6,170 nucleotides of DNA from a bacterium (GTDB lineage: Bacteria > CG2-30-53-67 > CG2-30-70-394): the NCBI GenBank assembly GCA_024278555.1, contig JAJRSX010000198.1, forward strand, positions 1 to 6,170, given 5' to 3'. Below the pieces are notes generated by a model. That model saw only the letters and a program-made list of their open reading frames with translations. It was not told the DNA's origin and ran no database searches. The position numbers were made by a program, and so were the translations under genes. Within the stretch, counting starts at the first letter, position 1; each line of letters begins with the position of its first letter. Positions 2,525 through 5,226 of the stretch are shown here, piece by piece.

Positions 2525-3195
2525 TCCTCCAGCACAAAGTCGAAGAGCAGCGTCGATGTTACGAGAAAGATCACATCGTACAGGGCGAGCATGCGGATGA
2601 AACTGGTCAACCCCTCGGTCTCGTGGTTGAGGATCAGGCCGGTGGATTGTACGGCGCCGATGATCACCGGCACGATGATCGGGAAGAGGAGCACCGGCAG
2701 CATCACCTCGCGTAGGCGGGTGTTGGCGCTGATCGCCGCCAGGAGCGTCCCGACGGCGGTGAAGCCAATGGTCCCGAGGAGGCAGACGAGGAGCAGCGGT
2801 GGGATCTCAGTGGTGAGCGAGAGGTTGAAGAAGAGGACGAAAAAGGGCAGCAGGATCGCCTCGGCGATGAGGGTGAAGCAGAGGTTGGCGAGCCACTTGC
2901 CGAGATAGATGGCGCCGCGGTCCATGGGGGTGAGCAGGACCCCGGAGAGGCAGCCGTTCTCCTGCTCGGAGGCGAAGGCGCGGTTGAGACCCAGCACCCC
3001 GGCGAAGGTGAAGGCGACCCAGAGGATCCCCGGCCCGATGGCCAGGACCATCTCGCGATCGGGGTTGAAGGCGAAGTTGAAGATCACCAGCACCAGGAGG
3101 GCGAAGAGCAGCATCGCGCTCATCGCCTCACGGGTGCGCCACTCCAGCCGCAGGTCCTTCATGAAGATGGTGAAGAGCTGCTGCAAGAACCTCAT
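2521..3195 (-). CDS. ccmB: CcmB, membrane subunit of the heme exporter ABC complex
   Basis: A 224-residue protein, the usual CcmB length, with about six membrane helices. Family signatures are KDLRLEWRTRE at residues 13-23, the block around PGILWVAFTFAGVLGLNR (55-72), and SEQENGCLSGVLLTPMDR (76-93). CcmB is the permease-like partner of the ATPase CcmA and works with CcmC and CcmD on heme-loaded CcmE at the inner membrane. The ATG at 3195 is the only plausible start: no in-frame ATG, GTG or TTG lies between it and the in-frame upstream stop at 3246-3244. No Shine-Dalgarno sequence precedes it; the ATG follows a run of six A's. Its first two bases lie in a perfect inverted repeat that reaches back to the ccmA stop codon. 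The 3' end overlaps ccmC as ATGA. Confidence 0.97.
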   Translation of the reverse strand: MRFLQQLFTIFMKDLRLEWRTREAMSAMLLFALLVLVIFNFAFNPDREMVLAIGPGILWVAFTFAGVLGLNRAFASEQENGCLSGVLLTPMDRGAIYLGKWLANLCFTLIAEAILLPFFVLFFNLSLTTEIPPLLLVCLLGTIGFTAVGTLLAAISANTRLREVMLPVLLFPIIVPVIIGAVQSTGLILNHETEGLTSFIRMLALYDVIFLVTSTLLFDFVLEE

Positions 3196-3284
3196 TTTTT
3201 TCGCGGCAAGAGTGGTCTTGGGAAGGACGGTGGTGGTGCGGTCTCAGCGCCATCTCTCGGGCAGGGCGCGGCCGCGAAAAAAAT
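3194..3284 (-). promoter_or_regulatory. Perfect 14-bp inverted repeat joining the ccmA stop and ccmB start
   Basis: ATTTTTTTCGCGGC at 3194-3207 is the exact reverse complement of GCCGCGAAAAAAAT at 3271-3284, separated by 63 bases. In the minus-strand mRNA the 5' arm begins with the A of the ccmA UGA stop, and the 3' arm ends with the AU of the ccmB AUG. Folding would bring stop and start together or hide the start. A 5-bp stem (GCGCC at 3269-3265 with GGCGC at 3251-3247) could form inside the loop. The repeat is directly seen; any role in translation is inference. Confidence 0.6.
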
Positions 3285-4012
3285 CACTGCAGCGACTCTT
3301 CGTACAGGGCATCGAACTCCTCGCGCGACAGGGCCGCCGCCGGGGTGTGGTGGATCACCTCGCCGCGCCGGAGGATGGCGATATCGGTGGCCATGGTGAA
3401 GCCGAGGTGGTGGTCGTGGGTAGTGAGCAGGACCGTGTGGTGCGCCTCGCGGAACCCCTCGATGAGCTCATTGAGGGTCGCCACCGAACGCTGATCCAGC
3501 CCGGTGTACGGCTCGTCCAGGAGCAGGATGTCGGGTCGGTGGAGGAAGGCGCGGGCGATCGCCAGCCGCTGCGCCATGCCGCGGGAGAAGTGGCGCGCCC
3601 GGCTGTTCGCCCGGTGGATCAGGTCGACTCGGGTGAGGACCTCCTCGCACCGCGCCTCCAGGTCGTCAACCTGGTAGAGGCGGCCGTAGAAGCGGAGGTT
3701 CTCCATGGCGCTGAGGTCGCCGTACAGAAACAGCTCATGGGAGACCACACCGAGGTGGCCGCGGATCGCCGCCGCCTCCTTGTGGGCGTCGAGGCCGGCG
3801 ATCTTCAACTCCCCGGAGGTGGGACGCATGAGCCCGGCGGCGATGCGCAAAAAGGTCGTCTTGCCGGCACCGTTGTGGCCGAACAGGGCGGTCACCCCGC
3901 CGCGCGGGACGTCCAGATCGACGCTCCGCAGGGCGGTGATGCGGCCAAACCGCTTCGCCACCCCGCGCGCCTCGACCGCATACCCGGTCGCCCCCCCTCC
4001 CGCCTGATTCAT
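3284..4012 (-). CDS. ccmA: CcmA, ATPase of the CcmAB heme exporter complex
   Basis: A single ABC ATPase domain of 242 residues. Walker A is GHNGAGKTT (45-53), the signature is FSRGMAQR (142-149), Walker B is ILLLDE (162-167) followed by the D-loop region GLD, and the H-loop is TTHD with H199. The FSRGM signature and the YGDLSAMENLRFYGRLY segment match the CcmA family rather than generic transporters. It is cytoplasmic, bound to CcmB, and its ATP hydrolysis is needed to release holo-CcmE. The Q-loop position appears to hold Glu (E93 in VVSHELF), where most CcmAs have Gln. The ATG at 4012 overlaps the upstream gene's stop as ATGA, with no good Shine-Dalgarno sequence, so translation is probably coupled. 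The N-terminal GGG is encoded in a G7 run. Very secure. Confidence 0.97.
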   Translation of the reverse strand: MNQAGGGATGYAVEARGVAKRFGRITALRSVDLDVPRGGVTALFGHNGAGKTTFLRIAAGLMRPTSGELKIAGLDAHKEAAAIRGHLGVVSHELFLYGDLSAMENLRFYGRLYQVDDLEARCEEVLTRVDLIHRANSRARHFSRGMAQRLAIARAFLHRPDILLLDEPYTGLDQRSVATLNELIEGFREAHHTVLLTTHDHHLGFTMATDIAILRRGEVIHHTPAAALSREEFDALYEESLQ

Positions 4013-5226
4013 CCCATCGCCCGGTCGAGGTGCTGCACCGTCTGATCGAGCTGCTCCAGGAGCTCGGCGCGACGCCGCTGGTGTTGACGACGGCTGATGG
4101 AGCCCTCTGCGAGGCGATCGTCGAGGGCGGCGATGGCGGCGACCAGGCTCTCCTTGAGGCGCAGCGCCTCCTTTTCGCCCTTGGCGACGCCGTTGGCCGC
4201 GGGGCGCGGCGTGCCGCCCATGAGGAAGGCGGCGGCGATGAGGATGACGCCCATGCCGCCGGCCACCAAGGGGATCAGCCGCTGGGTACGGTTGGGCTCG
4301 ATCGCCACCTGGAACTGGCCGCGTCCGCCGCCCACGGCGGTGCCGCCGGAGAGCGCCACACTGATCCGGCTCCCCGCCTTGGCCGCCTCACCGTGGACGT
4401 AGATGAGGTCGCGCTCGACGTTTCTGTCCATGACCTTCAGCGGAGCGACCGGGGTGACAGTGACGTCCGCCGGCTGGACGAAGAGGTCGACCCTGGGCAG
4501 GTCGTACGGCAGGCGGGCCTCGTAGCGGAGCTGCTTGCCCGGGTAGGGGAGGCCGTAGTTGACGGTGATCTGGGTCACCCCGGGGCGGATCGGGTAGTCG
4601 ACGGTAAACAGCTCCGGGTCGTTCGTGGCCACCGGCTCGCGCTGCACCGGCTGCCCCTGGGCACGCACGCTGATAGCGGTCTCGCCGGTGCGCCCCTTGG
4701 GCAGGAAGACGCGGAAGAGGCCGCCCTCCTTGTACAGGGCGCGGTTGCCCGTGTTGGTCACCTGGATCAGCTCGTCGACACGAAAGATCCGGCCGTCGGT
4801 GCGCAGCAGCCGCCGCTCGCTCACCTCCACCCCGGCCCACTGGTCGCTCACGTCAAAGACGGTGAACTCGACGCTCGCCGGGGCGCCGGTGAGGCGCAGG
4901 GGCTGGTTGTAGGTCACCCCCTTGTACTCGGCGCGGACGAGAAAAAAGGGCGCCTTCGCCTGCACGTTGGTGAGCTGGAAGCGGCCGTCGGTAGCGGTGG
5001 TAGAGGCGACCTCCTCCATCCCCAACGACGGCGCGATGAGGGCGATCTCCACCGGCCCGAGGGTCGCCCCCGGCGTCCCCATGTGGATGACGCCGGTGAT
5101 GGTTGCCCCTGCCCCCTGCCCCTGGGCCGCGGACGACCAGGCCACCCCAATAACGAGCACGAGGGCCGCCAGGAGGCGCTGGAGGGGCGCACCAGCGGTG
5201 CCGGCAATAACGGTCTGTTCAGCCAT
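4009..5226 (-). CDS. Exported, membrane-anchored protein with carboxypeptidase-regulatory-like domain; ccm accessory candidate (405 aa)
   Basis: Start ATG 5226 is chosen because AAGGA (5239-5235) lies 8 bases before it; ATG 5235 directly abuts that site, and longer starts run into the previous gene. Residues 16-34 are a hydrophobic signal segment, with likely cleavage near SSAAQG. Residues about 41-125 (ATITGVIHMG, then ATDGRFQLTNV) resemble a carboxypeptidase regulatory-like or transthyretin-type beta-sandwich. Residues 130-310 are further beta-rich periplasmic sequence. A membrane helix follows at about 317-337. The cytoplasmic tail (350-402) is a charged coiled coil with a DDRLAEGSISRRQHQRRRAE stretch that recalls the short SHOCT-type helix pair. 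There is no cysteine in the mature protein and no catalytic motif. It sits between a CcmI-like gene and ccmA, overlapping ccmA by ATGA, which suggests a role in heme export or apocytochrome handling. The specific function is unknown. Confidence 0.85.
   Translation of the reverse strand: MAEQTVIAGTAGAPLQRLLAALVLVIGVAWSSAAQGQGAGATITGVIHMGTPGATLGPVEIALIAPSLGMEEVASTTATDGRFQLTNVQAKAPFFLVRAEYKGVTYNQPLRLTGAPASVEFTVFDVSDQWAGVEVSERRLLRTDGRIFRVDELIQVTNTGNRALYKEGGLFRVFLPKGRTGETAISVRAQGQPVQREPVATNDPELFTVDYPIRPGVTQITVNYGLPYPGKQLRYEARLPYDLPRVDLFVQPADVTVTPVAPLKVMDRNVERDLIYVHGEAAKAGSRISVALSGGTAVGGGRGQFQVAIEPNRTQRLIPLVAGGMGVILIAAAFLMGGTPRPAANGVAKGEKEALRLKESLVAAIAALDDRLAEGSISRRQHQRRRAELLEQLDQTVQHLDRAMG

Follow-up and report, generated by a model that had tools for sequence, protein, structure and literature searches.

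The perfect inverted repeat between ccmA and ccmB is probably an interrupted, long-loop copy of a lineage-specific family of gene-end hairpins of the form T5-7-CGC-loop-GCG-A5-7. The family recurs in the genome, is biased in its position, has covarying stem pairs, and is absent from the congener, and the question shifts from one operon to a genome-wide pattern. A device dedicated to coupling CcmB to CcmA is not supported as the primary explanation, and the lesson from the ccm site is that the exact fit of a stem to 2 codons is no warrant for dedicated regulatory design.

The inverted repeat at the ccmA-ccmB junction

The window, by which we mean the whole stretch of 6,170 nt of DNA analyzed here, contains the following features around the junction:

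4012-3284, minus strand: ccmA, heme exporter ATP-binding protein, stop codon TGA at 3286-3284 (NCBIfam TIGR01189, 133.5 bits, cut-off 131.6)
3271-3284, minus strand: 5' arm (coding strand), A(of ccmA TGA)-TTTTTTT-CGC-GGC, with the core T7CGC common to the genome-wide hairpin family
3208-3270, minus strand: spacer, 63 nt, single copy in the genome, with no other strong genome match
3194-3207, minus strand: 3' arm (coding strand), GCC-GCG-AAAAAAA-T, of which the last 2 bases are the AT of the ccmB ATG
3195-2521, minus strand: ccmB, heme exporter permease, ATG at 3195-3193 (Pfam CcmB PF03379, E = 3.8e-40), 4-nt overlap with ccmC
2524-1811, minus strand: ccmC, the neighbor of ccmB

A repeat search confirmed the arms described in the earlier note, at positions 3194-3207 (ATTTTTTTCGCGGC) and 3271-3284 (GCCGCGAAAAAAAT), which are 14 bp long, 100% complementary, and separated by 63 nt. 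Read on the minus strand, the repeat opens with the last base of the ccmA UGA and closes with the first 2 bases of the ccmB AUG, and the gap between the 2 genes is 88 nt. A 6-bp direct repeat, GCCGCG (3267-3272 and 3202-3207; gap positions 11 and 76), brackets a 59-nt stretch at 3213-3271. The predicted fold of the coding strand contains the stem, with an energy of -38.3 kcal/mol that is unremarkable (z = -1.7; 13 of 200 shuffles were as good). No known RNA family matched the repeat, the sole RNA family match in the window being a tRNA elsewhere. In a 298-kb sample of the genome, perfect inverted repeats with arms of 14 bp or longer and spacers of at most 100 nt occurred 17 times, compared with about 0.2 in first-order Markov sequence. 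Because of this excess, the ccmA-ccmB repeat is not an accident of chance or composition, though the genome is rich in such repeats.

Upstream of position 3195 there is no in-frame ATG, GTG, or TTG (the open reading frame listing takes the first start after a stop), and the CcmB protein of the congener aligns from residue 1 with 92% identity, which shows that the call of the ccmB start is sound and bears out the claim that ccmB has no alternative upstream start. The claim that ccmB lacks a visible Shine-Dalgarno sequence is likewise correct, but the same absence was recorded by a crude test for 103 of the 175 genes in the genome sample and for ccmB in the congener, so it is ordinary for this genome. 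Immediately upstream of ccmA, between a zinc-ribbon gene and ccmA and overlapping the latter by 4 nt, positions 4009-5226 of the window encode a 405-amino acid protein with no NCBIfam or Pfam match.

The genus comparison comprised 2 genomes, the source genome and the congener (G001; contig MNYW01000124.1, "Nitrospirae bacterium CG2_30_70_394"). In the congener, the ccmA stop codon TAA is followed by about 72 nt and then by the ATG of ccmB; this gap contains no T-run, no A-run, and no inverted repeat of more than 6 bp, and its fold is unremarkable. The 2 genes are thus spaced apart in both genomes of the genus, but there is no conservation of the stem. The earlier note had named independent divergence of the arms in relatives as evidence that would count against its reading, and the comparison goes part of the way toward this, since the sole congener compared keeps a 72-nt gap and has neither arm. 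No compensatory change that keeps the pairing was seen at ccmA-ccmB, the arms being absent in this sample of one, and the junctions at distant ccmB loci were short or unrelated. In an alignment of the gaps of the source genome and the congener, 8 of 1,000 shuffles were as good for the whole gap, which is a weak signal, and 337 of 1,000 were as good for the inner part, which is not significant. The weak whole-gap alignment hints that the gap is perhaps older than the arms, and is too weak to decide between an interrupted hairpin and a template switch. Matches to ccmB at E = 1e-3 were obtained in 2 of the 2 genomes of the genus and in 0 of the 6 class relatives outside the genus (G002 to G007).

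A genome-wide family of gene-end hairpins

The core of the ccm arms, T7CGC/GCGA7, recurs in the genome as tight hairpins of the form T5-7-CGC-NNN-GCG-A5-7. The first clue came from the 298-kb sample, where CAATTTTTTTCGC and CCATTTTTTTCGC are 2 more repeats built on this core. A pattern search identified 14 tight copies of TTTTTTCGC-N-GCGAAAAAA in the genome, and 22 when T5/A5 was allowed. The same search for tight-core copies gave none in the congener, and the reversed pattern, which served as a control, had no match in either of the 2 genomes. With a covariance model built from 20 copies, about 33 distinct places were reported in the genome; the congener had no match, and 4 class relatives had a few. 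Because the search itself demanded the core pairs, these were excluded as evidence of covariation; just outside the searched core, the 2 next pairs were paired in 19 of the 20 copies, compared with about 9 expected if the 2 sides of the stem were independent, and included several pair types. In most of the stop-adjacent copies the loop reads TRY on the sense strand, and isolated half-sites of the core were also enriched.

The hairpin is absent from the congener at the orthologous sites that could be aligned (C131, C163, and C51), for which reason the copies are lineage-specific gains or losses. With about 33 gene-end hairpins that are absent from the congener, the birth and function of stop-proximal palindromes can be tested by a comparison of orthologous sites that have a hairpin with those that lack one. 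A phage origin of the hairpin was rejected, as the exact pattern had no match in viral contigs.

All 22 exact-core copies are intergenic or sit at the extreme ends of predicted genes, according to gene calls made with a simple codon-usage script. The start of the hairpin falls between -4 and +3 nt from a sense-strand stop codon in 9 of the 22, compared with 3.1% for random intergenic placement (P ~8e-9). At C56, the sequence TG-A-TTTTTTTCGC...GCGAAAAAAA-TG has the same fit to TGA as at ccmA. The hairpin at C95 is located 13 nt after one stop codon and 3 nt before the next start codon, and the same stem was also found after genes that have no downstream start inside the stem.

Stable RNA genes carry copies as well. 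A copy found by the model (L212:157-528, G000:C112) is a variant, TTTTTTTGC-TGC-GCAAAAAAA, which starts at the 3'-terminal CCA of the tmRNA gene. Two class relatives (G006:C83 and G004:C114; L098 and L099) contain three copies each of TTTTTTCGC-NNN-GCGAAAAAA directly 3' of tRNA genes (Ser, with others nearby) in a tRNA cluster, and G003 and G007 have one copy each near a tRNA-Ala sequence.

Several observations concern the surroundings of the copies. In L116, L117, L118, L120, and L082, stop-adjacent copies are followed immediately by a second hairpin composed of G and C only, such as GGGCGCC-TGC-GGCGCCC, and the gene end may thus be a two-hairpin module. Hairpin copies are present on both sides of a gene that by eye resembles those for PIN-domain proteins of the VapC type and its small upstream partner (L055:16189-16946, G000:C16); both genes of this pair are absent at the aligned place in the congener. 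At L058:2634-2717 (G000:C169), a large inverted repeat, GGTAGGAGGGGGTTGCACCCC, adjoins TGATTTTTTCGCGGCGCAAATCA, a hairpin that has decayed and that follows a stop codon. Another repeat family of the genome consists of recurring inverted repeats, CACAGAGGACACAGAGAACT / TTCACCACGGAGACA, in L053, L058, and L059.

Relationship of the ccm repeat to the family

The ccm repeat contains the T5CGC/GCGA5 core in inverted orientation, as T7CGC and GCGA7 in its arms, and its stem starts at the A of the TGA, as in C56, which is a habit of 9 of the 22 exact-core copies and not universal. The tight loop of 3 to 5 nt is missing, with 69 nt between the core CGC and GCG, and the ccm site is not among the places that the covariance model reports; we therefore refer to the repeat as derived from the family and not as a regular member. 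Paired cores with a spacer of 45 to 75 nt occur at one place in the genome, namely ccmA-ccmB. From an estimated 96 or so unpaired half-sites genome-wide, about 0.15 convergent pairs within 100 nt are expected by chance, before T7 and the further pairs are required. If one GCCGCG and the stretch bracketed by the direct repeat were removed, the remainder would be T7CGC-GGCC-GCGA7, a normal hairpin of the family. The contention that so exact a fit is hard to explain as a GC-rich coincidence holds with respect to chance, given the 17 repeats against about 0.2 in Markov sequence, but the fit to the stop codon is a trait of the genome-wide family that was also seen at other genes (C56, C152, and C156) and is not specific to ccm.

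We suggest that the ccm copy is a family hairpin in which the loop has been opened by extra sequence, giving 63 nt between the arms instead of 3 to 5 nt. Because the copies follow stop codons, tRNAs, and tmRNA, the stems covary, and the loop has a sense-strand polarity, the hairpin may act as an RNA 3'-end or intercistronic stem-loop, which at this site would protect or delimit the ccmA message. By coincidence, the 3' arm directly adjoins the start of ccmB and may also reduce independent initiation at ccmB, and a ribosome that finishes ccmA would cover the 5' arm, upon which the stem would open. Several findings speak against the interpretation as an interrupted hairpin: no intermediate state was seen, the congener has an armless gap of 72 nt, and the ccm loop is about 15 to 20 times longer than that of any other copy. 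Against a role at gene ends, the hairpin is without the U-tail of an intrinsic terminator.

A broader proposal, which we put forward as speculative and doubtful, is that these hairpins constitute a lineage-specific class in which the terminator polarity is reversed, with the U-run at the beginning, the A-run at the end, and a URY loop, and which is used at the ends of mRNAs and tmRNA and also, in class relatives, of tRNAs. They would then be a new element of RNA 3' ends or stop codons, expanded in a single species and captured in the ccm operon, where it would also gate ccmB.

Alternative explanations

Two effects on the translation of ccmB had been proposed in the earlier note. In one of these, the stem hides the ccmB start and is opened when ccmA is translated to its end, a form of coupling by RNA unfolding in which CcmB would be made only when CcmA is. 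This is physically possible: the mean predicted unpaired value of the start region of ccmB is 0.20, within the bottom 4% for 147 genes, and the predicted value rises to about 0.54 with the 5' arm occupied by a ribosome on the ccmA stop codon. Translational coupling is also known at a spacing of +52 nt, as in rpmI-rplT (PMC12548453). However, the congener lacks the stem and has a predicted open start region at ccmB (0.48). In the source genome, pairing of the ccmB ATG itself is nothing unusual (rank 0.48) and the fold energy is ordinary, and the same stem follows genes with no start inside it. We consider masking of the start unlikely as the explanation of the repeat, although it could hold as a by-product even if the repeat originated from the hairpin family. 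The other proposed effect, that the fold holds a terminating ribosome beside the ccmB start for reinitiation, is not supported and is very improbable. The predicted stem does bring UGA and AUG side by side, but its 5' arm starts at the A of UGA and would be covered by a ribosome on that codon, which makes the stem and the terminating ribosome mutually exclusive. Reinitiation is furthermore strongly limited by distance, a separation of 38 nt having abolished termination-reinitiation for one pair of genes in E. coli and reduced it by 80% to 90% in 2 others (PMC10666635), whereas the ccm gap is 88 nt.

The repeat could also have arisen as a mutational by-product, if a template switch during replication placed a reverse-complemented copy of one arm at the opposite end of a gap that was already there, leaving a functionless perfect stem. 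It is known that a single template-switching event can produce a perfect hairpin (PMC8794818), and such an origin would be consistent with the perfect arms, the spacer that is unstructured by comparison, and the congener gap of similar length without arms, for which the whole-gap alignment is slightly better than shuffles. A template switch alone nevertheless does not account for the match between the arm and the core of a family with about 33 occurrences, or for the location of such stems at stop codons, and we regard it as somewhat unlikely. The remaining alternative is a palindrome without a role in RNA that acts in the DNA, for example by binding a protein or by forming a cruciform. The core is a near-perfect DNA dyad and isolated half-sites are enriched too, but a binding site has no need for the matched changes on both sides of the stem outside the core, and the copies cluster just after stop codons and at the ends of stable RNAs rather than at promoters, which makes this reading quite improbable. 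Insertion of an 88-bp mobile element with target duplication of TGA, splitting a GTGA overlap, was also considered and rejected, as there is no second copy of the 99-bp region and the congener has its own 72-nt gap instead of an empty GTGA junction.

Comparison with known systems

Like an intrinsic (Rho-independent) terminator, the family hairpin is a stem-loop at the end of a gene. The polarity is reversed, however, with the T-run in the 5' arm, the A-run in the 3' arm, and nothing U-rich after the stem, and for these reasons the hairpin is not a canonical terminator. The sequence after the ccm stem is GAGGUUC on the coding strand and CACTGC on the other, which does not give the combination of a GC-rich stem and a U-tract, and an intrinsic terminator at ccmA-ccmB was rejected because no U-tract was present on either side. 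Near copy C51, a conserved canonical terminator is separate from the hairpin.

The ccm junction resembles systems that are coupled by RNA unfolding, such as rpmI-rplT in E. coli and coat-lysis in MS2, in that the region of the downstream start is predicted to pair with sequence that the upstream ribosome would cover. It differs from them in that the ccm stem is not conserved in the genus and the same stem is found after genes without a downstream start in the stem.

In its position, the family hairpin resembles the stop-proximal subset of REP elements, which are short, multi-copy, extragenic hairpins, some of them within 15 nt of a stop codon. Ribosomes are reported to stall at REPs that lie less than 16 nt from a stop codon, and in other instances REPs reportedly protect mRNA or act on its stability (PMC12306157). 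A literature search of limited extent returned general papers on REPs and template switching and no published description of hairpins like these, which is no proof of novelty. No pair of hairpin cores was found beside the Y1 transposase gene at the 3 loci examined among the 4 Y1_Tnp matches in the genome, and a RAYT-borne REP was rejected on this ground; flanking of a RAYT (Y1) transposase by copies is not demanded by every definition of REPs. The sequence of the family also differs from that of REPs: the 5' arm carries a U-run and the 3' arm an A-run, and the sense-strand loop reads TRY. The loop of the ccm copy is far longer than in REP hairpins. As in REPs, the family consists of multi-copy extragenic palindromes without a U-tail, with about 33 sites that are either intergenic or at gene ends; the ccm site is a single locus. 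We conclude that the family is a variant of the REP-like stop-proximal palindromes, and a more interesting find than the ccm site.
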